From the NCBI RefSeq assembly GCF_001046635.1, contig NZ_KQ130455.1, forward strand, positions 251,103-315,102: a stretch of 64,000 nt of DNA, given 5' to 3'. Numbering within the stretch: position 1 is the stretch's first letter; each line of letters begins with the position of its first letter. Source of the stretch: Novosphingobium barchaimii LL02 (GTDB lineage: Bacteria > Pseudomonadota > Alphaproteobacteria > Sphingomonadales > Sphingomonadaceae). The notes below the pieces were generated by a model. That model had not been told where the DNA came from. It ran no database searches and saw nothing but the letters and a program-made list of their open reading frames with translations. This document shows, one piece after another, positions 2,589 to 23,284 of this stretch. A program made the translations under genes and the position numbers.

Positions 2589-3371
2589 TTAATCGGCCAC
2601 CCATATTTCGCTGCGGTGCCAAGCCAGTCGGCTTCTTTGTTCATCTACCAACTGCAACGGCGGCGCTTTTTCCAGCGCCAGTGCAAGACGCGCTGATTTG
2701 CCAAGGCTGGGCGAGGCAATAGCATTGCCCAAGTCGTCGAAAGTCACCAGGCCGCTGTCGAATGCGGCGTCCCACAAGGACGACAGTAGCAAACCATTGT
2801 GGACATTCAGCCTTTCCTGATCGCTTTCGCAATCGGCCCAAGGGATTATATGTGAGGCGCGAAGCAGTTGCGGCTCAACTACGCCAGTGAAGGGGCAAGT
2901 TCTGTTCCAGTAATCCATGACTGCTACCCGGAATCGATCCTGACCTATCCGGACCTTCTGAGCGCGTTCGGCCTCTGTGTCGCCCAGGTGAGAGGTTTCC
3001 CGAATGAAGTCTTCAAAGGGCAAAGTCGGCAGGCTCAGCGACAGGCGGTAGACTGCACTGACGCCCGCAAAGAGGGCGTCTCTGGTCATGAAGGCAAAGG
3101 CTGCGGCGTGCCCCTTTGCACAAGGCCCGGCAGACTCCGCCTTGAGTTCCCTAGCTGCACCTGGATGAGCGACTGACAAGAAAAATGGCCCATTCAAGCC
3201 AGATGCCGTCGCAGCGACAGCAATCTCGCCCGGCGCAGACGCAGACGAATAAAACAGCCAACCAGCTGCCTGACCTTGGGCAATGCGATACCCCTGACCA
3301 TTGGCGGCATCCCGGAGCTCAGATTCAAGCGCAAACGGGTAATCAAAAAGGCGCTGCCCGGTGTCGATCAT
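2589..3371 (-). CDS. HNH endonuclease-domain protein (HNH_2 type)
   Basis: The 260-aa protein has a poorly conserved N-terminal half and a clear HNH_2 domain from about residue 150: DYWNRTCPFTGV, LLRASHIIPWADC, then NVHNGLLLSSLWDAAFDSG and a final AWHRSEIW. The H of ASHI, the N of HNGLLL and the later H give the metal-binding nuclease pattern. It starts 24 bp after the stop of the SF1 helicase gene on the same strand, so it is probably the last gene of the four-gene operon running from the broken ATPase gene. A role as the DNA-cutting part of a defence system is inference. Confidence 0.85.
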   Translation of the reverse strand: MIDTGQRLFDYPFALESELRDAANGQGYRIAQGQAAGWLFYSSASAPGEIAVAATASGLNGPFFLSVAHPGAARELKAESAGPCAKGHAAAFAFMTRDALFAGVSAVYRLSLSLPTLPFEDFIRETSHLGDTEAERAQKVRIGQDRFRVAVMDYWNRTCPFTGVVEPQLLRASHIIPWADCESDQERLNVHNGLLLSSLWDAAFDSGLVTFDDLGNAIASPSLGKSARLALALEKAPPLQLVDEQRSRLAWHRSEIWVAD

Positions 3372-3395
3372 GCGATAGGTTCGCTTTCAATCTGG

Positions 3396-6053
3396 TCACC
3401 AGTTCTCGTGAAAGAGCTGTGAAACCGGTTCCATCGATCCCGGGAGTGCGTTCCCAGAACAAGTGAGCCCCAAAAAAGTCGCAGCACGGGTAGCGCCGAC
3501 GTAAATATAACGCTCGAAGAGCTCGGGTTCTTGGCGGGCAAGTTCGTCAATATCGACAAAGAAGATCGCCTCGAACTCAAGGCCCTTGATGTGCTGAACC
3601 TCAAATATTCTCACGTCATTTTCGGGACCGATAGCCTGGCCCTTTGGACATGCCACAGCACGAATGGCTTGGTCTTCCAGGGCTTCATTCAAGGCATCGG
3701 CAAGCGGTTGGAGCTGGTCTTCCCGATTCACAAGCACCGCAATTGACGGAAGAAGCTCGGAGAATCGTTCGATCTCGCGAACTCGCGCAGCCAACCATCG
3801 AGCAAGCAGCCCTATATCCGCCAGATCCATTCCAAGGACTGGCGAAACCCCTTCATTTTCCATGAATTCGGGGAGGGTGGATTGGCTTTCTGCGTCACCT
3901 GCAATGACCAACTGATTGGCGAATTCATTCAGCTTCCGACTTTGCCGGTAGACGATCGAAACTTCCCTGATGTCAATGTCAGGGAAAAGCCACTTGAGCT
4001 CATCCTTGGATCTCGTGCCCCATTTTGTGAGGCGCTGATTGAAGTCGCCGATCGCAAAGAACGAATCTGTGCGGGGGTCGACCAAGGCCGTCATGCAGGC
4101 CAATTGAACTGGCGAAAAGTCGGTGGCCTCGTCGACTAGGATCTGATTGCGCTGCAATCCAGCTACATCTTCAAGAATTGCTGGAGACCGATCACCCAGA
4201 CGACGGAGCAGCTGGGCATCGCCAGAAATCTGGCGGGCTGCACGCAACATCGCCAATATCACGATATCAAGCTCAAGCGCATCGACATCTGCTGGCCCGA
4301 GTAGCGCTGAATACCAGTTACCCTCGGCCAGTGATTCACGGCGGAAACGGCGATATCTTGCCGGAATCTTTGCCACAAAATTAGTCGGCGCTTTGGAAAT
4401 CTGGGTCATGGCACGCTGCATGACAATGTTCGCACCGACCTCACCAAGAGCCGGCAGCACCAGTTTCCTATCGTCCAACCAGGACAAAACCTGAGCATTC
4501 CGGCTGGTCTTGGCAGGAGCTCTCTTTGTGACTTCTGCCACAGCTTTTGCGCGCAACGCCTTATAGAAAGCAGCCTCGGCGGCCCGAAGACCCTGTTGAG
4601 GCACCGGCTCGTCGTCCTCATCGTCACCGTCGGGGTCGTCGAGCTCGTCCTCATTCTCTGGTGTCAGCGTAGCGACAAAACGCGCCAGCGCCTCAAGCAA
4701 ACCCTTGTCTTTGCGGACCTCGAGGGAAAGCATCGATCTTAGGCGTTGCCGGGTTTCGTCCCGCGATGTCGCCAACAGCTTCTGCAAATCTTCGAGCAGA
4801 CCTGCCAGCTCGAACAGGAGGCGCGCAGGCCTCCCCTGGCTCCGCTCGATCGCCGCGCCGATCTGGGTTCCGATTGCCGCGACCTTCGGGTCGTTAACCG
4901 CATCAAGGCGACCCGCAGCTTCCCCCAGTTCGTCAAGGAACAGCGCCTGTTGAAAGGCGGTGAATGCTTCGAACCACTCGATCTGATGAGCGGGCGTTTC
5001 AGTCTTCAGAATGCCTGGCTCGGGCTTGATCACCATGCCCTTTCGCTTGCCGGACCGGAGGATCGGCAGGCTACGCCGGGCAATTACGTGGCGATAATCT
5101 TCCCATGTCTGGATGCGCTCGTCAGTGACGGGCACATCTTCCCTGTTGAACGCCGCCTTCACATACTCCTTTAGAAGCGTGGTAGGCGTGAACATCAGCC
5201 AGCTGTGCGCATGATCCAGTCCGCTCGCTCCGGGCTCTTCAACAAGGTCCTGTTCCTCTGGATCGAGGTGAGCAAAGTCCAGTTTCTGACGCAGGCGCTT
5301 GATCAACGTGGTCGTCTTGCCTGAACCGGGAGGGCCAAGGATGGCGAGACGGCTATCCAGCGGCAGGCGGAAAATCTCGTCCTGATACTGGTCCAGCAGC
5401 GGCTGGACGCGCATCTGCATGGCGGTCAGAACCGAGCGTTGAAGACCCTTCACAATGTTGTCTGCGGCGTCTGCCTCGGCCAGCTGCCGCTCCAGCTCAT
5501 CGATCTCGTCTTCAGCGAAACCGTCCGCGCGCAACAATTCGCGCAGCGATTTGATGGTCTGCGGCGGCTGCTTTTCCAGAAAATGGACCGCCGGGCGGGA
5601 ATCCCAGACATCCTGATCGGTCGTCGGCTCGAACGTCAGCTTTTGCCGAACTTCAAAATAGCGCCGGCCAGCGGGCAAAGTGATATCGGTCCCTTCGCCC
5701 ACAGGCAGGGAGGCAAGCCGCCCCTTGCCACGATTGTTCAGATAACTGCAGAGCTTGATGCCGGGAATGTTTAGCTCAGCGTTCGGCGTGATGTAGATCG
5801 TTTCTACGTTGTCATCTTCATCAGCCACTTCAAGCCGCGCGATCGCTGGTTTTCGGCATAGCTGACGCAGATTGCCGGTCCGCTCCAGATTGCGGTCTTG
5901 CATGCTCTTCGCAAGCGTATCCGCTGTAGCGTGATTGATGCTCGCCATCGCATCCAGGGTAAGCCCACGTTCGCCAAGGCGCTTTTGCGCGGAATCCGCA
6001 ATCGCTTCGATGGTGATAAGCGCTTCATTGGCAAGGCTCTTCAGATTATCCAT
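3396..6053 (-). CDS. UvrD/Rep-like superfamily 1 DNA helicase
   Basis: This 885-aa protein has SF1 helicase motifs in order: Walker A ILGPPGSGKTTTLIKRL near residue 245, a Walker B/motif II ILVDEATDFSPVQL, motif IV-like VYRQSRKLNEFANQL, motif V VQHIKGLEFEAIFFVD and motif VI YVGATRAATFLGL close to the C-terminus. An acidic low-complexity stretch (EDELDDPDGDDEDD) lies in the middle. The N-terminal 240 residues are outside the helicase core and are not recognised. The ATG at 6053 follows a GGGGG stretch and overlaps the upstream 116-aa gene by 8 nt; a TTG at 6071 is an alternative start. Co-translation with the ATPase and HNH genes suggests one system. Confidence 0.88.
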   Translation of the reverse strand: MDNLKSLANEALITIEAIADSAQKRLGERGLTLDAMASINHATADTLAKSMQDRNLERTGNLRQLCRKPAIARLEVADEDDNVETIYITPNAELNIPGIKLCSYLNNRGKGRLASLPVGEGTDITLPAGRRYFEVRQKLTFEPTTDQDVWDSRPAVHFLEKQPPQTIKSLRELLRADGFAEDEIDELERQLAEADAADNIVKGLQRSVLTAMQMRVQPLLDQYQDEIFRLPLDSRLAILGPPGSGKTTTLIKRLRQKLDFAHLDPEEQDLVEEPGASGLDHAHSWLMFTPTTLLKEYVKAAFNREDVPVTDERIQTWEDYRHVIARRSLPILRSGKRKGMVIKPEPGILKTETPAHQIEWFEAFTAFQQALFLDELGEAAGRLDAVNDPKVAAIGTQIGAAIERSQGRPARLLFELAGLLEDLQKLLATSRDETRQRLRSMLSLEVRKDKGLLEALARFVATLTPENEDELDDPDGDDEDDEPVPQQGLRAAEAAFYKALRAKAVAEVTKRAPAKTSRNAQVLSWLDDRKLVLPALGEVGANIVMQRAMTQISKAPTNFVAKIPARYRRFRRESLAEGNWYSALLGPADVDALELDIVILAMLRAARQISGDAQLLRRLGDRSPAILEDVAGLQRNQILVDEATDFSPVQLACMTALVDPRTDSFFAIGDFNQRLTKWGTRSKDELKWLFPDIDIREVSIVYRQSRKLNEFANQLVIAGDAESQSTLPEFMENEGVSPVLGMDLADIGLLARWLAARVREIERFSELLPSIAVLVNREDQLQPLADALNEALEDQAIRAVACPKGQAIGPENDVRIFEVQHIKGLEFEAIFFVDIDELARQEPELFERYIYVGATRAATFLGLTCSGNALPGSMEPVSQLFHENW

Positions 6054-6396
6054 TTGCACCCCCGAATTCAAACGGCTCCGGCTGCTCTTGTGGAGCCGGA
6101 GCCTCTATCCCTTGATCTGTCGCTGGCGGCTTGCCCGCCCACATTGAAAAGCAGCCCATGGCTGCTGCCACTTCTTCGGTCGTGCTGGCACCGCTCACAT
6201 CGATGCCGAAATCTTCCAGCGCATCGCGCGCGCCGTTGAACCAAGCCCGCAGGTAAGGGCGCAGCGCGAATAAGTCGCTGTCCAGCTCCTTCGCGATGAT
6301 CCGGGAAACTTCCATGAAGTTGCGCTGACCGGCTTCAAGATGAAAACCGGCCACCTGCGCGCCACTGGAGAACATCTCGGAATCAAAATTGCTCAT
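6046..6396 (-). CDS. Small protein between an SMC-like ATPase and a helicase, function unknown
   Basis: This is a 116-aa protein with no recognised domain. The middle is helical and amphipathic (MEVSRIIAKELDSDLFALRP, then YLRAWFNGARDALEDFG), and the last 25 residues are proline- and glutamate-rich. Its ATG lies 2 nt after the stop of the ATPase gene and its stop overlaps the helicase start, so the three are tightly coupled. By size and place it resembles the 'middle component' of ABC-three-component (ABC-3C) conflict systems, but this is inference from position, not sequence similarity. Confidence 0.7.
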   Translation of the reverse strand: MSNFDSEMFSSGAQVAGFHLEAGQRNFMEVSRIIAKELDSDLFALRPYLRAWFNGARDALEDFGIDVSGASTTEEVAAAMGCFSMWAGKPPATDQGIEAPAPQEQPEPFEFGGANG

Positions 6397-6398
6397 CG

Positions 6399-7493
6399 TC
6401 AGAAGTCTGTCGCAAACAGGCGTTTTTCGGCAGGTGCGCCATGCAATTCCAGACGTTGCCAAGGCTTTTTTCGATAAGTTTCAGGAGGGGCCGTCGTCGT
6501 AGTGACAATGTATTGAAACAGAGGTGACGACCCCATCGACTCCAGCTTCTCACCCAGAATAAATAGTCGATTATAAATCGAAAGGCCCAAATCGGCCTCG
6601 CGCGGGCTGTCGTGTATTAAAAACGCAGGGAGTTGGGTGCGACCCTCAATTGTCAAGAGCAACGCTGCAATGTCAAATGCAACGATTTTCAACGAATCAA
6701 CAGCTGCAGTTGATCGCTCACCACCCATCTGTAAGCGTAAGTTCAGCTCATTCTGATCCAGATTGACCGCGCCACTTGCACCATCAGCGATAAGAAACCT
6801 GAGTACAGCATCAAACAGGAGCGAAAGCCGCGCCACAGTCTGAAGCGAGGCGTTGCGCTCGTCGATAGCTTTACGGGCTTCACCGGCTTGTTCAGCGATC
6901 AGCTTGTCGATGGCGACTGCGCTGGTCTGAAGCTCGCTCAGATGGGCAGCGTACCGCGTACTCATGGCGACATCGCCTTTCGCTTCTGACAAGCGCTTGG
7001 ATTGCTCGATTAAGGCCTTTTCCAGCCTTATGACGGCATCTTCTAAGGGCTTCAGACCCTGCTCTGCAGAACTTCGTTCATACTTTAGGTTGTTCTTTTC
7101 CGTAGTCAGGCCGCTGATATCGTTTGCCAGCGACGTAATTTTTCCGACCACATCATCCTTCTCTTGTTGTCGTTCAGCCACGAAATCCAGAGCGGCCTGA
7201 TCCATCCTGCGTCCGCATTTTTTACAAACTGGATTTTGAGCATCGTAAACATGGGTATGAGCATTGTTGGCATCGCTATCGAGCACTTTCCTCAATTCGG
7301 CCTTACCCGCCAAATCCCGGTCAATCTCGGCAAGCCGGACAGTAATTTTTTGGAGTGACTTCTCCGCATCGGCTCTTGTTGCGCGAGCCTGGACCAATTT
7401 GAACGGAAGTTCAGGGTCAACGGCCGCTTCTGTCGCTTTGGCGATTGCGGTAGCCTTGTCCTTCCAAAAATCAGGTTGTGCTTCAGTTCCACC
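6399..7493 (-). pseudogene. Rad50/SMC-like coiled-coil ATPase (DUF2326-like), C-terminal part, broken by IS66
   Basis: The remaining 364 codons show long coiled-coil stretches on both sides of a CxxC zinc-hook-like motif (NPVCKKCGRR), then a C-terminal ATPase half with a signature-like GGERSTAAVDSLKIVAF and a Walker B-like LPAFLIHDSPREADLG, as in DUF2326-type SMC/ABC ATPases. The IS66 element at 7494 interrupts the gene; the same frame resumes beyond it at 10101, and the IS3 end at 10245 removes the rest, including the Walker A half. An ATG inside the IS66 end (7544) could still give a truncated protein. It is the first gene of the operon with the 116-aa protein, SF1 helicase and HNH protein. 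Confidence 0.82.
7486..7493. repeat. IS66 target-site duplication, left copy
   Basis: The 8-bp sequence GTTCCACC directly precedes the IS66 terminus GTAAGCGCG and is repeated exactly at 10101-10108 after the other terminus. IS66 elements make 8-bp duplications. Confidence 0.95.
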
Positions 7494-7588
7494 GTAAGCG
7501 CGCATTTCGTAGCACGTTGCTTCCGGAGGCAGTGCGGCCATCATAGTTGACGCTGGACGAGCCAGGCCACCGCAACGACGTCGGCGGG

Positions 7589-9190
7589 TCAGGCGGGTCT
7601 TTCGAAGTTGAATGGCAGCAGGTCGTCGATATCGGCGTCGTGAGGTCGCTGGGGCAGTTCAGTGAGGACATGGCGTAGCCACGCGAGAGGCTCGACGCCG
7701 CAGGCGCGGCAAGTCAGCATCAGGCTGTAGGTGACGGCGCTCGCCCGTGCGCCGTCCACTGTGTCGCAGAAAAGCCAGGATTTTCTTCCTGTTGCAAAAA
7801 CCCTGATGTCACGTTCGAGAAGATTGTTATCGATCGGCATCCTGCCGTCTTCGACGTAGCGCGTCAGGTATTCCCACTGGTTGAGGGTGTAGGATACCGC
7901 ATCACCAAGCTTGGTTTCGGGCATGACCTTCGGTGCGATCGCATCGAGCCACGCCTTGAGGGCATCCAGGACCGGGACGCTATGTTTCTGGCGGAAGCGG
8001 CGCATGTAGCTGGCCTGCGCTTCCCCCTCATCGGGTATTTCGTCCCGCGCCTGCCTTTCGATCCGGTAGAGCTGGTCGAAGAACTTGAGCGCCTGTGCGG
8101 GCGGCCCGCCTTGTTTCTTCCTCGCCTTGAGGGCGTCGGCAAAGCGCCGTCTGGCGTGGGCCATGCAACCCAGATGCGTGGCGCCTTTCAATGTGCGCCA
8201 TGCCGTATAGCCGTCACTCATCAGGATACCGCGATAGTCGCCGAGGAAGGCCTGCGGATGTTCCTGCCCGCGACCGGGTTGATAGTCGAACAGCACGATC
8301 GGCTGTTTGCTGTCCTCGCTGCTGCGGTAGGCCCACATATACGAGGTGCTGGTAGGGGCCTTGCCCTCTTCCTTCAGCACTTGAACCGTAGTCTCGTCGC
8401 CATGAATGACGTCCTGGGACCGGAGCCGCAGCTTCAGGGCGTCATAGATGCGATACAGATGCCTCTCGCTCGAACCAATCACCCAATGGCCCAGAGCACC
8501 GCGGCTAACGGGTACACCTGCACGCTCGAAGGTTTGCGCCAGACGATAGAGCGGCGTGCCATCCACGTATTTGTGGACAAGGGCAAAGGCCAGCGTCGAG
8601 GCCGTGGCAATGCTCCCCGGCAAAGGCTGGGCGGGCATTGGCGCAAGGACGATCGGCGTGGCGACCCCGGTGCGGTCGCAATTGCGGCACGCATATTTGG
8701 CGCGGGCATTCTGCAGGACCGTGGCCTTCACCTCGATGTGAAGCTGCTCGGTTACCACTTCCCCCATGCGATGCAGCCGTTCGCTGCAGCACGGGCAGAC
8801 CTTCTGGTCGTGGGCGAGGTCATATTCGACGCGCTGGCGTGGCAGGCCCGCAGGAAGTGCCTTGCGCCCGCGCTTCTTCCCTTCTGGTTTTTTCGCCTCC
8901 GGCAATCCCGTGTCGGGAAGATCGGCAGCGCCCGGCTCGTCGATATCGTCGTGATCTTCGTCTGCATCGTCCTCAAGGGCGGCCTGCTCGGCTTCATTGA
9001 AGACGCGATCCATGTGCTTTTCGCTGCGCGGCGCAAAGCGGTGCAACCGCGCCAGCGCCAGTTCCTCCTCAAGCTTCAGTATGCGCCGGGCAAGGGCGTC
9101 CCTCTCGGCCGCCAATGCCTCGACCTCGGCGGCTTTCGTCGCCAGAAGCGCCATCAATTCCGCAATAGTGGGCACGCCGCCTCGATCCAT
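7589..9190 (-). CDS. tnpC: IS66 transposase TnpC
   Basis: This 533-aa DDE transposase has an N-terminal coiled coil/leucine-zipper region, an acidic linker, a zinc-binding region (KVCPCCSERL and YACRNCDRTG) and the catalytic domain with VIHGDETTVQVL, MSDGYTAW and a late NNLLERDIR, giving the D, D and E positions. The C-terminal SLMLTCRACGVEPLAWL tail is typical of the family. It is full-length and open. It lies 41 bp after tnpB in the same transcript direction. Confidence 0.96.
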   Translation of the reverse strand: MDRGGVPTIAELMALLATKAAEVEALAAERDALARRILKLEEELALARLHRFAPRSEKHMDRVFNEAEQAALEDDADEDHDDIDEPGAADLPDTGLPEAKKPEGKKRGRKALPAGLPRQRVEYDLAHDQKVCPCCSERLHRMGEVVTEQLHIEVKATVLQNARAKYACRNCDRTGVATPIVLAPMPAQPLPGSIATASTLAFALVHKYVDGTPLYRLAQTFERAGVPVSRGALGHWVIGSSERHLYRIYDALKLRLRSQDVIHGDETTVQVLKEEGKAPTSTSYMWAYRSSEDSKQPIVLFDYQPGRGQEHPQAFLGDYRGILMSDGYTAWRTLKGATHLGCMAHARRRFADALKARKKQGGPPAQALKFFDQLYRIERQARDEIPDEGEAQASYMRRFRQKHSVPVLDALKAWLDAIAPKVMPETKLGDAVSYTLNQWEYLTRYVEDGRMPIDNNLLERDIRVFATGRKSWLFCDTVDGARASAVTYSLMLTCRACGVEPLAWLRHVLTELPQRPHDADIDDLLPFNFERPA

Positions 9191-9231
9191 CGCAGTCTTG
9201 AATCGAAAGCCCGTTCCCGCGTCAACAGCCT

Positions 9232-9585
9232 TCAGCCGACAAACTGATATTGCCGCACCGGATGAGGGACCATTGCGTCAATATCGATCCCGTCGAGCAG
9301 CCATCGCAATTGCTCGGCGGTGAGCGCCACCACCGTTTCCGCTCGTTTGGGCCATCGGAACTTGTCCTCCGTCAGCGCCTTGAGCACCAATACAAAGCCC
9401 GACCGGTCAAAAAACAGGAGCTTCATCCGGGTCCGGCGCCGGTTGCAGAAGGCGAACGCCGCGCGCTCGAACGGATTGAGGCCCATCGACTGCTCGACCA
9501 GGATCGCAAGGCTGTTGATCCCACAACGGAAATCGATCGGATCCCGGTGGAGATAGACGCGCAGATCTTCAGCGAGCCGGAACAT
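9232..9585 (-). CDS. tnpB: IS66 accessory protein TnpB
   Basis: This 117-aa IS66 Orf2 protein opens with MFRLAEDLRVYLHRDPIDFR and has the conserved NPFERAAFAFCNRRRTRMKL core and FRWPKR segment. The ATG at 9585 was chosen because this methionine opens the family's conserved N-terminus; it overlaps the end of tnpA by 17 nt, suggesting coupling. TnpB is needed for transposition of IS66 elements, but its biochemical role is not settled. Confidence 0.94.
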   Translation of the reverse strand: MFRLAEDLRVYLHRDPIDFRCGINSLAILVEQSMGLNPFERAAFAFCNRRRTRMKLLFFDRSGFVLVLKALTEDKFRWPKRAETVVALTAEQLRWLLDGIDIDAMVPHPVRQYQFVG

Positions 9586-10021
9586 TGCAATGCCCCAGCG
9601 CATCGATCATCACCGCCAGTAACTGCGCGTCACACCCCTCCAGCGTCAGCGATACGCCATTTGGCATCGACGCCTGCAGCCGCACTGACGGTACCAATCC
9701 CGCAGACCGGATCGCGATCCCACCAGTGTGTCGCTCCGCAGGCGCCAGAGACGTCTCCACCCGGATAAACGCCGACGGATCCGGCAACGGCCCCGTGCTC
9801 CGCTGCCCCTTCGCACTCTGCCGCTCCTGATACTTCCTGACCCATTTGCGCAGTTGGTTGGCGTTGACACCATGCTCCAGCGCAAGCCTCGCCACCGATA
9901 TGCCCGGCTCGAGGCACGCCTCGACCAACCGTGACTTCCCCGCCCGACCATAATAGCGCCGGCCGTTACTCGTCACCCTTACAACCTCAAGCCCATAGGA
10001 GCCCATCGGTGCCATCTCCAT
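9569..10021 (-). CDS. tnpA: IS66 accessory protein TnpA
   Basis: This 150-aa protein has an N-terminal helix-turn-helix resembling other transposase OrfA proteins (LVEACLEPGISVARLALEHG, then VNANQLRKWVRKYQ), consistent with binding the IS ends. The ATG at 10021 gives the usual start; one at 10066 would extend into the IS terminal region. It is the first gene in the IS66 and overlaps tnpB. Confidence 0.92.
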   Translation of the reverse strand: MEMAPMGSYGLEVVRVTSNGRRYYGRAGKSRLVEACLEPGISVARLALEHGVNANQLRKWVRKYQERQSAKGQRSTGPLPDPSAFIRVETSLAPAERHTGGIAIRSAGLVPSVRLQASMPNGVSLTLEGCDAQLLAVMIDALGHCNVPAR

Positions 10022-10100
10022 GTGTCCACCTCTTCCTTGGTGGACACATCCTTCACACCGCGTCACTCAACCGAACAGGTGCGCGGAATTTCGCGCTTAC

Positions 10101-10245
10101 GTTCCACCAAACTTCTGAGCCAAGCCGGACTGCATATCTTCGACAAGGTATTCAAGGCGCCGCCGCTGGTTGCGAGCCTGCTCAATCTTGGCGCCCAGCT
10201 CTCGTGCGGTTTTCGCTGCGGTCATTTCTGCCGCTGACAGCGCAT
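10101..10245 (-). pseudogene. SMC-like ATPase gene, internal fragment between IS66 and IS3
   Basis: Read on the minus strand, this stretch encodes about 48 residues including LGAKIEQARNQRRRLEYLVE and ends in QKFGGTE, which continues in frame into 7485-6399 once the IS66 and one copy of its duplication are removed. It is helical, as expected for a coiled-coil arm. Its first 8 bases (10101-10108, GTTCCACC) are the right copy of the IS66 target duplication. The upstream end abuts the IS3 terminus at 10246, and nothing further of the gene is visible in the window. Confidence 0.85.
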
Positions 10246-10263
10246 TGAGTAGCCCCTAGTTTT

Positions 10264-11175
10264 CTAGACGCCTTCTGCTTTCAAAATCTGCTGCCGTTCG
10301 AACTGGGCGGGTGACAGCATCCCGTTTCTGACCTGCTTGCGCACCGGGTTGTAGAACATCTCGATGTAGTCGAACACATCCTGCCGGGCTTCCTCGCGTG
10401 TTTTGTAGGTCCGGCGCCGGATGCGCTCTCGCTTGAGCGAGGAGAAGAAGCTCTCGGCGACAGCGTTGTCATGGCAGTTGCCGCGCCGGCTCATCGAATG
10501 CTCAAGATTGTGAGCCCGGATGAAGGCAGCCCAGTCCATGCTGGTGAACTGCGAGCCCTGATCCGAATGGATCAGCACCCGCTGCTTCGGCTCGCGCCGC
10601 CATACCGCCATGTGCAGCGCTTGCAGCACCGCATCGGTGGTCTGCCTGCTCTGCATCGACCACCCCACCACGCGGCGGGAATAGAGATCAATCACAACGG
10701 CCAGATAAGCAAAGCCCTCTAGGGTGCGGATGTAGGTGATGTCGGTCACCCAGGCCCTGTCGGGGGCAGCGACGTCGAACTGCCGGTCCAGAGTATTGTC
10801 GACCGCCAGGGATGGCTTGCCGCCATAGCTCCCCGGCCGACGCTTGTAGCCGATCTGCGCCTTGATACCTGCCAGCCTGGTCAACCGGGCAACACGGTTC
10901 GGGCAGCAGGTCTCGCCCTGATCCAGCAGGTCGTCGTGCAACTTGCGGTAGCCATAGACTTTGCCGCTGTCGTTCCAGGCTTGCCGGATCAACTTCGTCT
11001 GCCGAACATCTTCCCGGGCCCGTTGGCTCAGCGGGTTCTTCTGCCAGGCATAGAAGCCGCTGGGCTGGATGCGCAGGCACCGACACATCGATCGAACCCG
11101 GAACTGGTCACGATGCTCGGCAACAAATGCGTATCTCACTTTGCATCCCTGGCGAAATACGCGGTGGCTTTTTTT
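10264..11175 (-). CDS. IS3-family transposase OrfB (integrase core), expressed by -1 frameshift
   Basis: OrfB has an HTH_21-like N-terminal part (YAFVAEHRDQFRVRSMCRCL) and an rve integrase core with WVTDITYI, LIHSDQGSQFTS and ESFFSSLKRE, giving the D, D and E of the active site. It lies in the -1 frame to orfA; the shift is expected at the A7-G run (plus-strand T run 11169-11175), giving an OrfAB fusion of about 380 aa. An in-frame ATG at 11283 lies inside orfA and is not a likely start. The gene is open, so the element may be active. Confidence 0.94.
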   Translation of the reverse strand, partial: KKSHRVFRQGCKVRYAFVAEHRDQFRVRSMCRCLRIQPSGFYAWQKNPLSQRAREDVRQTKLIRQAWNDSGKVYGYRKLHDDLLDQGETCCPNRVARLTRLAGIKAQIGYKRRPGSYGGKPSLAVDNTLDRQFDVAAPDRAWVTDITYIRTLEGFAYLAVVIDLYSRRVVGWSMQSRQTTDAVLQALHMAVWRREPKQRVLIHSDQGSQFTSMDWAAFIRAHNLEHSMSRRGNCHDNAVAESFFSSLKRERIRRRTYKTREEARQDVFDYIEMFYNPVRKQVRNGMLSPAQFERQQILKAEGV

Positions 11176-11405
11176 AGTATATCGCGCTCCTCGGTCACCC
11201 GGGCCAGCTCGCGCTTCAACTGGCGGATCTCGGCATCCTTGCTGGCATCGCCAGACACCACCTTCGCCAATTGCCGCTTCCATGCGTACAGCGAATGCTG
11301 ACTGACGCCGAGCCGTTCAGAAACCTCCGCTACCGGATACCCGCGCTCGGTGATCTGGGCCACCGCATCACGCTTGAACTCATCGCTGAAATTGGGCTTC
11401 CCCAT
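11136..11405 (-). CDS. IS3-family transposase OrfA (HTH)
   Basis: This 89-aa protein has the Tnp_8-type helix-turn-helix (FSDEFKRDAVAQITERGYPV, AEVSERLGVSQHSLYAWKRQ) and a leucine-zipper helix (AEIRQLKRELARVTEERDIL). It binds the IS ends. The end of the gene contains the A7-G slippery run used to reach the orfB frame, and its own stop follows about 30 codons after ILKK... begins, inside orfB. A start ATG at 11405 lies 60 bp from the right IS end. Confidence 0.95.
   Translation of the reverse strand: MGKPNFSDEFKRDAVAQITERGYPVAEVSERLGVSQHSLYAWKRQLAKVVSGDASKDAEIRQLKRELARVTEERDILKKATAYFARDAK
11169..11175 (-). promoter_or_regulatory. Probable -1 ribosomal frameshift site of the IS3 element
   Basis: The minus strand reads CTA AAA AAA GCC in the orfA frame. 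A run of seven A followed by G is a standard slippery site, and slipping back one base enters the orfB frame as AAA AAA AGC. IS3 elements commonly use this to make OrfAB. Confidence 0.8.
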
Positions 11406-11461
11406 CGTCGTCTCCTGTCCTCAAAATTAGGATAGAAGGCGTCCAGAAATCTAGGGGCTAC

Positions 11462-12904
11462 TCACCAGGTTAGCGAGGGAAGTATCCAAGGCAAAGCAAG
11501 CGCATCGGTCGATACGATATCGCCGAGTGCCCTGAGCTTAGCGCTTCCCCAAGAATCTTTTGGCGGCTTGGACCAAGTCGTGACCCCAAGTCGGGGGACG
11601 CTGCGCGTCGCGGGGAATTCAAGACCGCGCGAAATCTGATAGCGGTCGCCTAGTGCTTGGGCGGGCAAGGGGACCGACAGCCAATACGCGATCGTTGCAG
11701 TCTTCAGGTTCTTGGGCACCGCGGCGGTAAAGTGACGAAAGACGTCTAAGTCGTGTGGTTCGATCCGCACTGGATTGGGGGGTGGTTCGCTGCCTTCTCG
11801 GGCGGCGGGCCGTTCAGTCCGAGACATGAGCGGTGTCAGAAGCGCCTCAAGCCGATGCTTGATCGTCTTAGCCTCGCTGACTGCAGTCGCGCGGCTCTCG
11901 ACCGGCAGGCGACCGATCACGTGCAGCAGATCTCCAAAGCGTCGAAATTGCGCCTCAGCCTCGGAGCGCACATCGGAGCCACCAAGAAACTCGATTAGAT
12001 CGAACAGCTCGACGTGCGGTGCAGCCCCGGCGCTGGTCTCCCAACGCTCTGCATAGAAGCGGTATGGCGTGGCGGAGAGCAACAGGATCGGTGGCGGCGA
12101 GGAACCGTCCTTGCCCTGGAGCAACTGGCGCGCGAGTGGATTGTCTTCGCCGGCATCGAGCAACTCGCGGTAGCATTGAAACTCATCGAGGATCACGAGA
12201 TCAGGCGTAGCGGAGTCGAGCGCCGCTTGCGCCAAGGCCTTTCGCATCAGGCCGATCGTGTGGCCATCCGCGATCTTCGGATTGTTGGCCGCACGCGCGA
12301 TCGTCTCGCGCGCAGGCTTGCCAAATTCTTCCCTGAGAGCCCGGCCATAGGCGGTTTTGAACGCCGCCGATGCGTGCGCGAACTTGCGCTCAGCTTCAGC
12401 AAGTGCCCAGAACCAGCCCGTCGTCGCACCGTGCTCAATGAACCCGTCTCGAAACGTGCAGGTTAGCCCAGGGTAGATCTCGTCGAGCAGTAACTTGATA
12501 AATGCACGCTCAACCGCTTTGCCGCCGTAGAGGCGTTTTGTGCTGGAAAAAGACGTATGGGGCGTGAACGCGTAGAGCCGCAGGCTGCCGGCACGCTTCT
12601 CCTCAAATGGGATGAGGCCCACGCGATCGATCTTCGACAGCGCATCGTCGGCGTCATCCTCGTCTAGAAAACGCAGCAGCTCGACTTTATTCTGGTCCGC
12701 GACCTTATGGCCGCTCGAAATGTAGTAGATCGTGAATTTGCGGGCCTTACGAGCGAGCGCCGCAAGCAAGTCGCGGGCGACAACGGTCTTGCCGAGGCCG
12801 ACCTCGTCAGCAACGAGGAACCGCCGTAACGGATTTGCGCCGGTAAGCGCTTTCGTTGCCGCAGCGACCGTTGCTTGCTGGAAGGGCTTGGACCGCGCAC
12901 TCAT
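11462..12904 (-). pseudogene. SF2 (SNF2/DEAD-like) helicase, N-terminal part, truncated by IS3
   Basis: The surviving 480 residues carry helicase motif I ADEVGLGKTVVARDLL near residue 30, motif II LVILDEFQCYREL and motif III LLLSATPYRF. The second RecA domain with motifs V and VI is missing. The stop codon (TGA at 11462-11464) is made of the last three bases of the IS3 terminus, so the reading frame ends exactly at the insertion. The ATG overlaps the stop of the PLD gene by 4 nt (ATGA). It is the third gene of the DUF6361-PLD-helicase operon and is probably non-functional. Confidence 0.88.
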
Positions 12905-14712
12905 GATGATGCCAGCTGGGTGCGGGCGATCGCCCAGATCTGCGCGAGCTGGCTCAAGTCTTTCTTCTCGGCGGGCGTGAGACTGCCATCATGGGTGAGC
13001 AGCGCATCGACATATGGCGCAAAGTGCTTATCGACCCGCGCGAACGCTTTTTCGTCACGCGCCCAGGCGGTGAGAATGTCTTCGAGTGTCAGACGCGTGA
13101 ACCCAAGCGACTCGCGTCCCTTGGCAGATCCTCCCATTTCTTCGTCCCAAGCGATGTCGCCGATCGGTACGGTCTCGCCACCTAGCATAGCACGCATCCA
13201 GTCGTGGAATGCGCGCAGGCCCATATGACGTGCTAGGGCAGCAAGGTCACGCTTCTCATCTAGCGGTGGGTCGACCGTCACGCGCTGCATCCACCGCACG
13301 GAGTCTTCAGTCGAGCACACGCGCACCTGGATAAACGCGGATTGGATTGATAGCGGGATGATCCCTAAATCGAGGCGGATACCGTCCTCTGGCCACGGAA
13401 GAAGATCGCCGTTGGCATGCCCCGCAAACACGCGGTGGCTCGCATGAGCGAGTTTCGGTGCCTTTCTCGCATCTAGGACGAAGCGGTCGCCGTCACGATG
13501 GAGGATCGGATCCCAAGACGCCATGAGCTCCTTGCGAGATTCCTCAAGCGCGTCGGCTTCGTCAGTGCTGGCGGGTTTGACCTGAGCAAGTTCGTCGATC
13601 GTGACCGGGGTGGCTTTGCCGATCAGAAAAGCGAGACCAGGGTTGAACGCGGCGCTCGCCTCCAATTCGATCATCACTTCGGAATTCCGGCCGGCCCAAG
13701 CACGGTCGGTGGCGTTGGCGCTGCCAATCCGGACAATCGATCTGTCACCACTATGAAAAGCGATGAGTTTAGCGTGAAGCGCAAGTGGCTGCGGCTCGGC
13801 GTCATCGTCGTCGAGCGTAACAGCCTTGGCTGTTTCTGATGCCTTCTCTTCGGTTGTCTCGTCTGGAGCCGCGTAGGCCAAGATGCGCGAAAAGGCTGCG
13901 AGCGGCTTCCCCGATCGGTTCGCCATGTCGACCAGCGCCGGCATCGAGGAGACCAAAGTTCGCGCGCCCTTTGGGCCCCAGCGCCCCGCCATGCTGAGAA
14001 AATCCGAGGACAGAAACGGACTCACAATCGTAATGCCGTCGATCGCCCCGGCAGGAGGCTCAACGGCCAAAGCAGCACCGACTTCGAGGCCGTCGAGAAG
14101 TGCGCGTAGTTTAAAACCGTCCGGCGCCTCCCACCAAATCGCCTTCAATTCCTCGCTTATGTCCAAAGCATCCGCCCGTCCGGCATCACGGGCAAGCCTG
14201 GCGCCAAGGCCACTGATACCCTCGAGGCGCATTCGCCCTTTTCCGAGCTTCGCGTGCCCATCGAGAAGAACGCCTACTTCGAGATCCTGAGAGCGAGTAA
14301 GGTTGCGGCTGCCGATCCAGAGCTTCCATCGTGTCTGTCCCTTTGGCACGTCATACGCCACAAGCGCGATCTTTGGGTGCCAGCTGCCGACACGCTCATC
14401 ATGCGTCTGCTCGACCACAAACTGATCGAGAATACCCGCAACCTTCGGCAGCGCGACAGGCCGTGCGATCCTCCCGCGCTGTATCACTATGCGCACTCGG
14501 TCCCGCAACTGATCAACCGCCTCAGCGAAATCGATCGCCGCGCCGGACCCCTTCTCATTGTTGCGGCCTATCAGTGCCAGCAGCATCGCGGCGATGGCCG
14601 AAAGGTCTACCGAGTAGGTCGCGAACAGTGCTAACCGGACGGCTTCGCCGCGCTCTGGACGAAGCTCGTCAAGATATGGCTGTCCCGGCCATGCAGGAGG
14701 GCGTCCATTCAT
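12901..14712 (-). CDS. Phospholipase D-family protein in a helicase operon
   Basis: This 603-aa protein has two PLD-like half-sites: GSWHPKIALV with a following IGSRNLTRSQDLEVGV, and LHAKLIAFHSGDRSIVRIGS followed by ANATDRAW. These give the HxK and the downstream N/S positions of PLD nucleases, so it is probably a nuclease rather than a lipase. The ATG at 14712 overlaps the DUF6361 stop (ATGA) and was preferred to the ATG at 14802, which lies inside DUF6361. PLD proteins paired with helicases occur in defence systems such as DISARM (DrmC), but this is not DISARM by gene content. Confidence 0.85.
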   Translation of the reverse strand: MNGRPPAWPGQPYLDELRPERGEAVRLALFATYSVDLSAIAAMLLALIGRNNEKGSGAAIDFAEAVDQLRDRVRIVIQRGRIARPVALPKVAGILDQFVVEQTHDERVGSWHPKIALVAYDVPKGQTRWKLWIGSRNLTRSQDLEVGVLLDGHAKLGKGRMRLEGISGLGARLARDAGRADALDISEELKAIWWEAPDGFKLRALLDGLEVGAALAVEPPAGAIDGITIVSPFLSSDFLSMAGRWGPKGARTLVSSMPALVDMANRSGKPLAAFSRILAYAAPDETTEEKASETAKAVTLDDDDAEPQPLALHAKLIAFHSGDRSIVRIGSANATDRAWAGRNSEVMIELEASAAFNPGLAFLIGKATPVTIDELAQVKPASTDEADALEESRKELMASWDPILHRDGDRFVLDARKAPKLAHASHRVFAGHANGDLLPWPEDGIRLDLGIIPLSIQSAFIQVRVCSTEDSVRWMQRVTVDPPLDEKRDLAALARHMGLRAFHDWMRAMLGGETVPIGDIAWDEEMGGSAKGRESLGFTRLTLEDILTAWARDEKAFARVDKHFAPYVDALLTHDGSLTPAEKKDLSQLAQIWAIARTQLASS

Positions 14713-15923
14713 GCGACGCCCTCCAAATCGCGGAGGAGCCGTTTGATATTGCCCCAGCGATAATGAAGCGGTTCCGCGAAACCATGCTTCTCGCCCTGCC
14801 ATTCCAGGCGCCGATCGACACCGAACTGGCTGTTGGCGAGGCGAGCACGGTCGCCTTTCCGGCTATACTCGGCTCGCGCATAGACATTCAGCAGAGCCGT
14901 CGGGTCCTTCTTCCTCGAGCGGACCCACGCAAGGGTCTCGCGCAACGCAGACTCAACCGGCGCTGGCAGGATGCCAACATCGTCGTGGAACTGAGCGAAA
15001 TCGAGGGCAGCGGCCTGCGATCCCCAGTCTTCAACGACCTCCCCTAGATCCTTACGGTGCAGGTCGTCCTGGGGCCGCTTGTCCCGCACTTCTTTCAATG
15101 ACTCGACGAGAGCCGCATAGATTGCTCGGCCGATTGCTGAGAGCGCGGCGGCCTGTCCGGCGCGCTTCAAACGGGAAGCATCCTTGCCCGCAAGTCCGAG
15201 TATCTCATCGCCCCAACAATGCACGATATCGTCCAGAGGTTGCCCTACAAGCTTGGACAGAAGCGAAGGCTCGCTCGGGTCGCTCGGTGACCGGACAGCG
15301 CGAAGCTTGCAGGCTAGGAATTCCTTTTCTTTCGCCGACATCTCGAGTGTCAGCTTGCCATCGCTGTCCCATTCTATCGGTGGGTCGATCAGACCAGTAA
15401 TGGGCCATGCGGCCGTCTCGAATGGCTTTCCGTCGTCGTCGTGCATCGATCGTTTGCTACCAGCGGTGAGCAAACGTGCCATGTCCGGCCGACTCCATGG
15501 GCGACCGTCGGGGCGGGTACCGATCAGTCCCCATTTCGCAAGCGCCGTCCAATAGACATAGGCCGGAGGCTGGCTGATGGCGCGGGGATAGACTTCGCCG
15601 CCGATCACGCCGTCTGGTTCTCCTCCATCATCGCCAAACTGCAGACGGCCAGTAAGCCTATGCTCGATATCGATAAACGCCTGCGCGAAGTCTTTCGGGA
15701 TGGGCCGTTTCGCCCGTAAGCTCTGATAGAGCCAAGGGATAAGAAGCGCATATCGGAGCCGGGTGTGCAGGACTGAGGTTCCCGGAAAGAGATGGTCCGA
15801 GTAACGCTGGTGGACGATCAGGAAGCCGACTTCATCACGGACCCCGGCGTTGGCACCGAACATCATTTGCTCTGCTTGTCCAAGTGCCTTTCGCGACAGG
15901 AAGGTAAATCCAAAAGACGACAA
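14709..15923 (-). CDS. DUF6361 family protein
   Basis: The 404-aa protein matches DUF6361 in its N-terminal signature: an early RDEVGFLIVHQRYSDHLFPG followed by TSVLHTRLRYALLIPWLYQSL. The function of the family is not known. The start is a TTG preceded by GGGGGT; it gives the usual N-terminus, and no ATG lies nearby. It is the first gene of a three-gene operon with PLD and helicase genes joined by ATGA overlaps, an arrangement that strongly suggests one system. Confidence 0.8.
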   Translation of the reverse strand: MSSFGFTFLSRKALGQAEQMMFGANAGVRDEVGFLIVHQRYSDHLFPGTSVLHTRLRYALLIPWLYQSLRAKRPIPKDFAQAFIDIEHRLTGRLQFGDDGGEPDGVIGGEVYPRAISQPPAYVYWTALAKWGLIGTRPDGRPWSRPDMARLLTAGSKRSMHDDDGKPFETAAWPITGLIDPPIEWDSDGKLTLEMSAKEKEFLACKLRAVRSPSDPSEPSLLSKLVGQPLDDIVHCWGDEILGLAGKDASRLKRAGQAAALSAIGRAIYAALVESLKEVRDKRPQDDLHRKDLGEVVEDWGSQAAALDFAQFHDDVGILPAPVESALRETLAWVRSRKKDPTALLNVYARAEYSRKGDRARLANSQFGVDRRLEWQGEKHGFAEPLHYRWGNIKRLLRDLEGVA

Positions 15924-16940: not shown

Positions 16941-17903
16941 TCATTCCTGCGGCGCAGGCGCAGCAACCGTTCCAATCGTCTCGATTTCCGCGATGCGCTG
17001 AAACTCGGACAGGTATTCCTGCCGATTGTTCGACAGCCAACGAACGACCCGGGCGTTGCCAAGCAGCTTCGCGACGTAGCCGCGCGCAAACGTGAGGTGG
17101 AGGTTGTCGATGCCATAGCTGTCCTCGACCGATTTCACCTGTGTCTGGAGAGTGGCAAGCTCACGCTCCATCCGGGAAATCTGCTGGCTAGTCGGACCGA
17201 CCAAATCGTTCTTGCGCGCCTTTTTCGCTGGCGCTGTCAGCTGATCTTCCGGTGTGGCCGCTAAGAGTGCGCGTGCGAAGATCAGCGAATAATTGTTCTG
17301 CCCGATCATGAGGTCCGCAGCCTCGATTTGACGCATGGGCGACATGCGGCGCAGCATGTCGAACACCCTCATCGAACAATTGGTGTCCTTGAGCATATCC
17401 GCTGTCTCGTCGCAGATACCGTCGAGCAGGCGGAAACGCGCGCGAATCGATCCCACCTCCAGGCCGAGGGCGTCGGCGATCACAGCCTCGGTGACGCCGC
17501 GCTCGACAGCCCTGACGATCATGCGGTGCTCCTGCACCGGGGGCAGGCGATTGACGCGCTTGTTGTATGTGTAGGTCTCGTCATCATTGGCGACGAGGCA
17601 CTCTACCGTCTCTACGCCGAGCTGCTTCAGCACCTCGATGCGCAGATGACCATCAAGAAGGAAGTACTGCTCTGCATTCTTGGGGTTTGAGACGACGGCA
17701 GGGGCTTCGACCAATCCGATCGCTTTGACCGAACTCACGATCTGGGCGTATTTGCGGCTCTCCCGCACGCCCTCCCGTAATGTTTTCAACGGCACGATCT
17801 GATCGATGCGGAGTGTCACAGACTGCCGCTCAAAACCCAGACGCACACGATTATCGGCACCGGGATCCGCCGCCGGCCGTTCTGTTTGCGGCCAATCAGT
17901 CAT
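16941..17903 (-). CDS. ParB/RepB-type protein with RepB C-terminal domain
   Basis: This 320-aa protein has a ParB-like N-terminal nuclease/CTPase-type fold (KTLREGVRESRKYAQIVSSV, YFLLDGHLRIEVLKQLG, then VNRLPPVQEHRMI) followed by an HTH and a RepB plasmid-partition C-terminal region. The expected GxxR motif appears as DGHLRIE rather than the GERRxRA of chromosomal ParB. Its start overlaps the preceding parB-like gene by 8 nt. It is the third gene of a recombinase-ParB-RepB cassette; a true partition role is doubtful because no ParA is present. Confidence 0.85.
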   Translation of the reverse strand: MTDWPQTERPAADPGADNRVRLGFERQSVTLRIDQIVPLKTLREGVRESRKYAQIVSSVKAIGLVEAPAVVSNPKNAEQYFLLDGHLRIEVLKQLGVETVECLVANDDETYTYNKRVNRLPPVQEHRMIVRAVERGVTEAVIADALGLEVGSIRARFRLLDGICDETADMLKDTNCSMRVFDMLRRMSPMRQIEAADLMIGQNNYSLIFARALLAATPEDQLTAPAKKARKNDLVGPTSQQISRMERELATLQTQVKSVEDSYGIDNLHLTFARGYVAKLLGNARVVRWLSNNRQEYLSEFQRIAEIETIGTVAAPAPQE

Positions 17904-18795
17904 CGATTTCCCCTGCGATCCGCATGGCCAGCGCCCGGGGCATCGTTTCGAGCCCTTCCGCCCTCAGCAGGGTCAGAAACCCGTCGTCCGTGAGCAAATC
18001 CTTGATTGCCTCAACAATGAAGAGAAGGCGGGTCTGCGTGAAATCAGATTTCTTCACGAGCAGACGCTGCTTTTCCGCCTCGCGCTGATAGACCTGCATC
18101 AGGTCGCCGGCCGTCAGCTTCCGATTAGTGCCTTTCCTTCCAAACTTTCCTGACGTCATAGACTTGCTGCGGCCGCGCATGCGGAGATCGAGAAGTCGGC
18201 GAACCGATGCCAGCTTCTTGCCGCGCAGCTTGCCGGTCTCATAGGCATCAAGGAGTAGGTTTTGCGCCTCTTCGCTTTCTGCACGCGAGATTTCCATGGC
18301 AAGGCTGATGGGGATCAGCCCCGTCTCGACAGCCGACAGCAACCTTTCTTCGCCGCGCTCGAGCAGGGTCACGATCATGCTGACCCACGAACTGGTGATG
18401 CCGATTTTGCGGGAGATCTCGGCTTCGGTGTAACCGCGTTTCCGCAAGGCACCGATCTCGTTCATGACGTCGATCGGACGTTGCACCCGGCGTGCAATGT
18501 TCTCCACCAGGCTCATGACGAGGCATTCGCTCTCGCTGGCTTCGATCACGACCGCCGGAATCTCGATCTGGCCAAGCATCTGGAACGCCTCGAGCCGCCC
18601 TTCGCCGCAGACCAAATCGTAGCGCGTGCCGCCCGGACCATCATGCTTGCTGACCGTGATCGGACGCTTGAGGCCGATGGTCTCGATATTGTTGACGATC
18701 TCGCGGTGCTGACGCTTGTTGCGCGCCCGGGGGTTAAGCACGGTGATCCGCGAAATCGGGATCATCTCGATGGTCTGGGGACGGGTAACGGTCAT
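17896..18795 (-). CDS. ParB/RepB/Spo0J family protein
   Basis: This 299-aa protein carries a ParB N-terminal domain: ISRITVLNPRARNKRQHREI, YDLVCGEGRLEAFQMLGQ with the GEGR motif, and SLVENIARRVQRP, followed by an HTH (YTEAEISRKIGITSSWVSM). A basic stretch follows around residue 210. It starts inside the recombinase stop (TGATG), and the next RepB-like gene starts inside its end, so all three are co-translated. Its binding site is not recognisable in the window. Confidence 0.87.
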   Translation of the reverse strand: MTVTRPQTIEMIPISRITVLNPRARNKRQHREIVNNIETIGLKRPITVSKHDGPGGTRYDLVCGEGRLEAFQMLGQIEIPAVVIEASESECLVMSLVENIARRVQRPIDVMNEIGALRKRGYTEAEISRKIGITSSWVSMIVTLLERGEERLLSAVETGLIPISLAMEISRAESEEAQNLLLDAYETGKLRGKKLASVRRLLDLRMRGRSKSMTSGKFGRKGTNRKLTAGDLMQVYQREAEKQRLLVKKSDFTQTRLLFIVEAIKDLLTDDGFLTLLRAEGLETMPRALAMRIAGEIDD

Positions 18796-22015: not shown

Positions 22016-23284
22016 TCACGCGGCTTGCTGCATCGTTTGCAGTCGCGCCGCTCCGACCTCCAACAACCGAGCGATCTCATCCGAAGTCCGTTGGATCGCC
22101 AGCTTCAGCGCCTCATCGATATGGATGTAATCCTGCGTCACGTTCTGGGAGGCGTGCCCGAGCATGGCGCGGATCGTGAGTTCCGAAAAACCGAGTTCGC
22201 CCGCGATGCTCCCGAACGTATGCCGCAGGGTGTGGGGTGTCACCCCCGAAATCCCCGCGAGTTTGCAAACACGATCCAGGCAGGAGCTTACAGCAGTGTA
22301 TGGGCCGGCCCCAACTTCAGACGGGAAAACGTGAGGGTTGCCGACGATTTCCGCCTGACTCTGGATTACTTTGAGCGCTGCGGGCCCAATTGCACGCACC
22401 TGCGCGCCGCCCTTGGTGTCAGGGAAGCTGACAAATCCGCCCGTAGCATTGACCCAGGCCCTCTGCATGGCTTGCGCCTCTTCCCGGCGATAACCGGTCA
22501 GAAGGAGTGTTTGCAGGACGCCCAGCGCAACAGGATTCTCATGATTTTGCTCGGCATAGGCAAGCGCCTTGCCGAGCATCTCGATCTCGGCAACACTCAA
22601 TCGCCGGGTTCGCTTCTTGCTGGCCAGTTTCTTGGCGCCTTGGGTGGGATGGTTGGCCAGCAATCCCTTGTGCTTGGCGTGGCCGATGATTGCCTGAATT
22701 GTGCCAAGGCACCTAGAGGCGACACCGGCTCCGCCGGTCGCCTTTCCACCACGTCCACCAGTGCGGGCTTTGGCCGTTTTCCCATTTTTCACGTCGGATT
22801 GCATCTGCTCGACATCGGCGATGCTCAACTGCGTGACCACGCGCTTGCCGAGGAGGGGGATGATATGCGTCTTGATCCGGCTTTCATCCATATCAAGCGA
22901 TGACGCCTTTATCGGGCGGTTCAGCCTTCCGAGGATGTTCCCGGCACGCGCCTCGATCAGGTACCAATCGCACATCTCAGCGACCGTCATACCTTTGCGT
23001 GCCCGGCGATTCTCGTCGGCGGGATCTTCGCCTTGGATAACAGAAGCGAGGTGCAGCTTCGCCTGATCGCGAGCTTGATCAACCGTCAGTATGCCATATC
23101 GGCCAATATTGATTCGGCGCTGGATGCCCTCTGGATTCCGATATTGCAGGATAAAGGTCTTTGTACCCGAAGACAGGATGCGTGCGCCGAAGCCCCGGAC
23201 TTCTGCATCCCAGAGCACGGCTTGCCCTTTGGCGGGAGGGAGCAGCCCATCAACGCTGCGTTTGGTTAGCTTGACCGTGGGCAT
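22016..23284 (-). CDS. Tyrosine-type site-specific integrase of the island
   Basis: This 422-aa phage/P4-type integrase has the DUF4102-like N-terminal arm-binding domain (KLTKRSVDGLLPPAKGQAVL), a SAM-like core-binding region, and the catalytic domain with LLLTGYRREEA (first Arg), TPHTLRHTFGSIAGEL (HxxR), then MLGHASQNVTQDYIH with the His of LGH and the Tyr nucleophile of YIH. The ATG at 23284 gives the family's start. It lies at the right edge of the island next to the 3' tRNA-Gly copy at 23463-23508, consistent with integration at that tRNA. Confidence 0.95.
   Translation of the reverse strand: MPTVKLTKRSVDGLLPPAKGQAVLWDAEVRGFGARILSSGTKTFILQYRNPEGIQRRINIGRYGILTVDQARDQAKLHLASVIQGEDPADENRRARKGMTVAEMCDWYLIEARAGNILGRLNRPIKASSLDMDESRIKTHIIPLLGKRVVTQLSIADVEQMQSDVKNGKTAKARTGGRGGKATGGAGVASRCLGTIQAIIGHAKHKGLLANHPTQGAKKLASKKRTRRLSVAEIEMLGKALAYAEQNHENPVALGVLQTLLLTGYRREEAQAMQRAWVNATGGFVSFPDTKGGAQVRAIGPAALKVIQSQAEIVGNPHVFPSEVGAGPYTAVSSCLDRVCKLAGISGVTPHTLRHTFGSIAGELGFSELTIRAMLGHASQNVTQDYIHIDEALKLAIQRTSDEIARLLEVGAARLQTMQQAA

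Follow-up and report, generated by a model that had tools for sequence, protein, structure and literature searches.

A probable composite defence locus in decay: Azaca and an SMC-bearing variant of ARMADA type I in Novosphingobium barchaimii LL02

On the minus strand of a 64-kb stretch of the Novosphingobium barchaimii LL02 genome (the window, in what follows), closely spaced genes encode an SMC/Rad50-like ATPase, a protein of 116 amino acids (aa), a UvrD-like helicase of superfamily 1 (SF1) and an HNH nuclease. The question raised by this locus is whether these genes form a defence system of their own or are what is left of a larger one. In a preliminary description of the DNA, they were put forward as a candidate for a self-contained four-gene system with a defence role, limited to positions 2589..10245. 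Comparison with related loci indicates otherwise: the region is very probably a decayed composite defence locus, in which Azaca stood ahead of an ARMADA type I operon carrying in addition an SMC ATPase, a variable slot and an HNH gene. Taken as a whole, that is, together with the mechanism suggested below for the intact relatives, this explanation is considered likely.

Truncated genes in the window and the operon of its relatives

Read from 5' to 3', the minus strand carries zacA, zacB, part of zacC, an IS3-like insertion sequence (IS), a fragment of the SMC gene, an IS66 element, the rest of the SMC gene and the genes of the 116-aa protein, the helicase and the HNH nuclease (Table 1). The set is thus wider than first proposed, as the Azaca genes ZacA, ZacB and ZacC, recognised in this order by PADLOC, continue upstream on the strand of the ATPase. 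IS66 is a clean insertion: it has GTAAGCG as terminal repeats and is flanked on either side by the 8-bp duplication GGTGGAAC; the IS3-like element has inverted repeats of 31 nucleotides (nt) and the outer flanks CCTGG and ATGCG, with no duplication. IS3 has ZacC on one side and the ATPase on the other, and both are truncated there. The first three bases of IS3 are the stop codon of zacC, whose product ends there after 480 residues, the full-length ZacC helicase being absent (the ZacC of Mesorhizobium AR02, locus L023, has 1014 aa). Compared with relatives of about 650 residues, the ATPase lacks approximately residues 1-230, Walker A included. The earlier identification of an SMC-like ATPase was hence right for the C-terminal part with its CxxC hook, while the gene itself is not intact and has IS66 inside it. 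The core genes found in relatives (a methylase and two helicases) had no match elsewhere in the window. In all likelihood, an event at IS3 deleted the end of ZacC, the entire core and the first third of the SMC, the lost core being reconstructed from the relatives, whose gene positions would put the size of the deletion at about 16-17 kb. Because these parts were removed at IS3 and the remainder was split by IS66, the window copy is unable to work as a whole; it is a scar, not a functional four-gene system.

The relatives of the ATPase that were compared are the best 80 of 199 in genomes, plus plasmid and genome loci, and the counts describe these closest ones, not the family. The order YprA/DruE-like DUF1998 helicase, SNF2 helicase, large Eco57I-type methylase and SMC, all on one strand, is seen in 59 of these 80 genome loci. 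Fifteen of the other 21 have under 9 kb upstream, and six with 10 kb upstream (L058, L079, L080, L081, L085 and L087) miss one or more of the four genes. In L023, the first helicase matches DruE (1.9e-88), MZB (2.4e-10) and DrmA (only 3e-15); the SNF2 helicase matches BrxH (1.4e-62) and, best of all, PDLC02853 'DpdE' (5e-193); and the methylase matches DrmMI (7.8e-63) and Eco57I (6e-20). Such a YprA helicase with DUF1998/MZB and such a gene order are features of ARMADA type I (Bell et al. 2025, bioRxiv September 2025; PMC12458937), which are seen in the relatives and are absent from the window itself, where the core is missing. To this operon the relatives add the SMC ATPase behind a C-terminal domain of the methylase, the variable slot and the HNH. 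In the accessible main text of the ARMADA paper, the terms 'SMC', 'ABC ATPase', 'DUF2326' and 'Azaca' are absent, and 'HNH' appears once, in a reference title (PMC12458937). No literature joining ARMADA with SMC or HNH was found in open-licence PubMed Central (PMC) text; the accessible text of one article contains 'ARMADA' and 'HNH' in unrelated passages (PMC13192584).

Azaca adjoins an ARMADA-type operon in four relatives, just as it adjoins the remnant in the window. In Mesorhizobium AR02 (L023), Bosea Root483D1 (L115) and Devosia enhydra (L116), zacA-zacB-zacC precede a core-SMC-HNH operon; the SMC and HNH of the latter two operons fall in L035 and L031, respectively. AbiE genes are annotated between the Zac genes and the operon in L023, and AbiE-like open reading frames (ORFs) were read at this place in L115 and L116. 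The fourth relative, Halomonas sp. ALS9 (L113, L114), carries ZacA-ZacB-ZacC-DruE-SNF2-methylase-SMC-UvrD-like helicase-HNH on one strand, all as open frames; this includes each window gene except the 116-aa one, with ZacA, ZacB and ZacC sharing only 26-35% identity with the queries where they align. On searching 19 genomes, ZacC homologs at E < 1e-30 were found in seven, and in three of the 19 (G010, G011 and G017) one precedes the operon in the same orientation. This context, Azaca upstream and the DruE-SNF2-methylase-SMC order in most genome loci, supports the defence role proposed earlier.

HNH comes after the SMC in 64 of 89 SMC loci, 57 times directly and seven times behind a slot. It is also present in seven of the eight SMC-less ARMADA I loci, the remaining one (L141) being cut by the contig end; this is the unbiased figure, since the locus count of SMC/HNH order admitted SMC-less loci only if HNH was present. 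The slot holds a helicase, GmrSD_N, YhcG, PD-(D/E)XK or ArdC-like genes across loci, and in the window the DarB-like domain of the 116-aa protein and the HelD-like helicase with its GreA-like N-terminus.

A C-terminal domain shared by methylases and HsdS

The ORF directly upstream of the SMC ends in a domain of about 165 residues in 84 of the 89 SMC loci; the count of methylases upstream of the SMC, likewise 84 of 89, includes HsdS proteins that match through this domain alone. The profile was trimmed to exclude a motif of about 33 residues that ends the shared part and also matches seven SMC-less methylases. Three of the five SMC loci without the domain are at contig ends, and two have no methylase (L017, L058). 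None of 22 loci without SMC has it. Among methylases of at least 1200 aa (n = 76), it is found in 69 of 69 preceding an SMC (lowest occupancy 0.95) and in none of seven without SMC (highest occupancy 0.05); methylases under 1200 aa, L079, L113, L125-L131, L140 and L141 were left out of this comparison. Left out of the locus counts by hand were overlapping loci and the gene-centred or partial regions L016, L018-L021, L027, L037, L109-L120 and L122-L131; loci with G handles were counted beside the named ones, and repeats between both are possible.

In a quick tree of the methylase core, built without the domain, SMC presence changes six times, five of these changes being forced by well supported branches, and domain and SMC are concordant in five of five independent pairs (p = 0.0625). 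Sister methylases can differ, as do L066 (with both) and L136 (with neither), which suggests a recent joint gain or loss of the two. The same domain (E ~ 1e-45) also forms the C-terminus of HsdS (Pfam Methylase_S) in three loci of Hydrogenophaga and Methylibium (L080:8074-11974, L081 and L085), in each of which the next gene is an SMC 46-47% identical to the query; HsdR (EcoEI_R_C) lies upstream of HsdS in L080. This arrangement is a stronger point for coupling than the joint movement with the methylase. DUF5655 (NucS_C weak) is found in the gene that follows the SMC in L081, and a similar ORF is present in L083. No match to the domain was found in Pfam or PADLOC (two members scanned), nor in the PDB under E 0.38.

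The genes left in the window and their surroundings

Open frames and motifs of the HNH nuclease, the 885-aa UvrD-like SF1 helicase and the 116-aa protein were confirmed as described before, and the spacings of 2 nt (gap), 8 nt (overlap) and 24 nt (gap) are correct. The ATPase is LmuB-like (PADLOC, 2e-10), scores 22.8 bits against DUF2326 (Pfam cut-off 28.7) and is 40% identical to the SMC of L104, L101 and L106. The HNH fold is closest to that of VcaM4I, an EVE-HNH modification-dependent nuclease according to the accessible text of its description (PMC7897488).

The 116-aa protein matches phrog_10089, 'DarB-like antirestriction' (PHROGs, 1.6e-15), and had no match in Pfam, PADLOC or NCBIfam. 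Among the loci compared, its one relative is the ArdC/M78-like protein that occupies this slot in L106 (Sphingobium xenophagum); the two are 35% identical over 84 aa, at the N-terminus of the L106 protein. That antirestriction-type protein (L106:12054-13214) lies between SMC and HNH, inside a defence operon. A search of 298 genomes, run without a positive control, gave 0 of 298, and in the 57 loci whose HNH lies no more than 200 nt from the SMC there is no room for the gene. An ABC-three-component (ABC-3C) middle component was tried as its identity and rejected, Pfam, PADLOC and NCBIfam being blank and PHROGs giving DarB.

The helicase has Walker A at K246, Walker B at D641 and UvrD_C_2. It occurs in other contexts without the ATPase. 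HelD is a helicase that recycles RNA polymerase; the HelD of Bacillus subtilis is the sole PDB match of the window protein (1.4e-5), which resembles it by fold and profile but lies in defence loci. Residues 72-139 align with the C-terminal domain of GreA, and hhalign gave Prob 95.4 against GreA/GreB, with shuffles at most 0.7. Pfam GreA_GreB is weak and below cut-off in two of six members (0.013 and 0.13) and absent in the other four, the window helicase among them; a HMMER comparison of the N-terminus with the PDB reached only E 0.8, to designed proteins. As the model of the full helicase is poor (predicted local distance difference test, pLDDT, 55.9), its structural matches count only together with the profile comparison. 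Since it carries a GreA-like domain, the helicase probably acts at RNA polymerase. Its closest homolog among the loci compared (52%), on a Sphingomonas sp. gentR plasmid (L006), adjoins a PLD-type restriction endonuclease and Dnd-like genes. The term 'HelD-like' was not found among the papers listed in a search of open-licence PMC text. ARMADA type II has, in the accessible text of its description, been validated against phages, with a direct, non-abortive mode, and its ArmD is a GajB-like helicase with Walker residues K266/D454 and a RelE-like N-terminal domain (PMC12458937). Identity with ArmD was rejected because the Walker A/B spacing differs (395 in the window helicase and 188 in ArmD).

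Table 1 Features of the remnant and its flanks in the window
Feature	Position	Strand	Remarks
HNH nuclease (HNH_2)	2589..3371	-	260 aa, open frame
HelD/UvrD-like SF1 helicase	3396..6053	-	885 aa from its ATG, open frame; GreA-like N-terminal domain, residues 72-139
116-aa protein, DarB-like antirestriction (polyvalent-protein) domain	6046..6396	-	open frame; phrog_10089 match
SMC/Rad50-like ATPase, C-terminal part	6399..7493	-	CxxC hook (CKKC), Walker B side
IS66 element within ATPase gene	7494..10100		target duplication GGTGGAAC at 10101-10108 and 7486-7493
ATPase upstream coding fragment	10101..10245	-	145 nt, 47 whole codons, one of three frames open
IS3-like element, without target duplication	10246..11464		joins truncated zacC to truncated ATPase
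zacC, N-terminal 480 residues	11462..12904	-	PADLOC ZacC 1.1e-113, profile 10-494 of 1019
zacB, PLD-domain protein	12901..14802	-	PADLOC ZacB 8.3e-113
zacA, DUF6361	14709..15923	-	PADLOC ZacA 3e-88; Pfam DUF6361 4.5e-13
Block shared with S. xenophagum L106	1499..3371		94.7% identity over 1873 bp

The identity to L106 ends right beside IS21-type genes, the end of istA and istB (26-1409 by ORF reading), and the flank common to both contains an NYN/LabA-like protein at 1761-2513 on the plus strand (ORF reading). Beyond the Azaca genes, two ParB-like genes and a serine recombinase (16941-20369) and a tyrosine integrase (22016-23335) were read from ORFs. Near 24 kb, the guanine plus cytosine (G+C) content increases to 0.65, from values of about 0.58-0.61, which likely marks an island border. 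No tRNA was found in the 64-kb window.

Alternatives and a possible mechanism

That the four genes stand alone as an ABC-3C-like system, with the ATPase, a small middle component and the helicase and HNH as its parts, is hardly credible, for all the tight gene spacing and the LmuB/DUF2326 similarity of the ATPase. A search of the loci for all four genes found them together nowhere else, the closest case being the SMC-UvrD-HNH of Halomonas ALS9, without the 116-aa gene. Moreover, the gene ahead of the SMC encodes the C-terminal domain, on a methylase or on HsdS, in 84/89 loci, and the 116-aa protein, with its single relative, matches DarB. The ABC-3C likeness noted in the preliminary description therefore stands for the LmuB-like ATPase and falls with the small protein, in which no middle component is recognisable. 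Lamassu and ABC-3C systems share with the locus an LmuB-like SMC ATPase with a hook and a nuclease encoded nearby; here, the partner domain sits on a methylase or HsdS instead, and the nuclease is an HNH. No LmuA or LmuC was matched by PADLOC among the window and L023 proteins scanned, the similarity being to LmuB only. It is also improbable that HNH, helicase, DarB domain and SMC fragment arrived separately and piled up by chance in a defence island. The HNH of L106 is 97% identical to that of the window, whereas the SMC is 40% identical and the slot different, and the block of high identity begins precisely at the HNH start codon; this and the many contexts of the helicase would fit a chance pile-up. 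The same Zac-core-SMC-UvrD-HNH order in Halomonas ALS9 and the core-...-UvrD-HNH arrangement of L007 and L121 would not.

Septu is a gene pair of the ATPase PtuA and the HNH protein PtuB, and the ATPase-HNH pair of these loci is reminiscent of it, although the HNH here is closest to VcaM4I. It is rather unlikely that SMC and HNH are a separate Septu- or Lamassu-like system which inserts behind ARMADA operons, with the methylase domain carried along by linkage. Such an origin would agree with the LmuB-like SMC, with the weak similarity of the HNH to PtuB in Foldseek (8eea_G, E 0.024) and with Paracoccus versutus L017, which has SMC-HNH and no core or methylase in the 7 kb upstream. PtuA and PtuB had no PADLOC match among the window and L023 proteins scanned; HNH is present in nearly all ARMADA I loci without SMC, and SMC occurs without HNH in 22/89 loci. 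Linkage alone hardly explains the domain either, because it recurs on HsdS with an SMC.

Several points weigh against a composite ARMADA type I locus with a coupled SMC, beginning with L017 and the 22 SMC loci lacking HNH just mentioned. L017 and the Bradyrhizobium japonicum locus L058 may be other reduced or decayed copies; a DruE fragment lies immediately before the SMC in L058. The core is missing from the window, and the case for its former presence comes from relatives in two lineages, L023/L115/L116 and Halomonas. The YprA homolog of ARMADA is described, in the accessible text, with a C-terminal Vsr nuclease domain (PMC12458937), which HMMER did not detect here: Pfam gave nothing past MZB in L115, and no Vsr was found in the PDB for the YprA homolog A5. 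The independent pairs are too few for significance. As domain and SMC adjoin in the DNA, one recombination could shift both without protein contact, so that their joint movement alone is no proof of contact, and the three HsdS loci, from related Burkholderiales, may go back to one event. A distant DUF2326 ATPase (Priestia L022, 22%), below the threshold for counting as SMC, lacks the domain. The poor helicase model belongs here as well.

The intact relatives suggest that the ATPase is a plug-in part riding on the enzyme that marks self DNA. A mechanism can be proposed for them only tentatively, and it may well need revision. The Eco57I/PglX-like methylase would mark self DNA, and the two helicases (YprA/DruE and SNF2/BrxHII-like) would restrict unmarked DNA. 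The C-terminal domain would serve the SMC as its docking site on the methylase; while touching this modification enzyme, the SMC might scan or clamp DNA in the manner of LmuB or PtuA. On meeting unmarked DNA, DNA ends or a blocked enzyme, it would license the HNH nuclease, which may otherwise be held off by the helix and domain preceding it, as in VcaM4I. The genes of the slot could be exchangeable extra effectors or counter-counter-defence parts; the window helicase might act at RNA polymerase on invading DNA as HelD does on that of the host.

To annotate a four-gene system in the window would make a spurious system out of what a deletion left behind. Its relatives make up a variant of ARMADA type I that has an SMC; the most interesting feature of this family is the module of adaptor domain and SMC, which it has in common with type I restriction-modification. 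Chances are about even that a portable adaptor domain and SMC plug into unrelated modification-based systems, on the methylase of ARMADA I and on HsdS of type I restriction-modification, as a Rad50-like sensor licensing an exchangeable nuclease. According to the accessible text of one article, it is unknown how a lack of methylation leads to restriction in DISARM, BREX and ARMADA (PMC12904381). If true, the coupling of an SMC to the modification subunit by such a domain, in two systems, would offer a direct way into this step from methylation to restriction.

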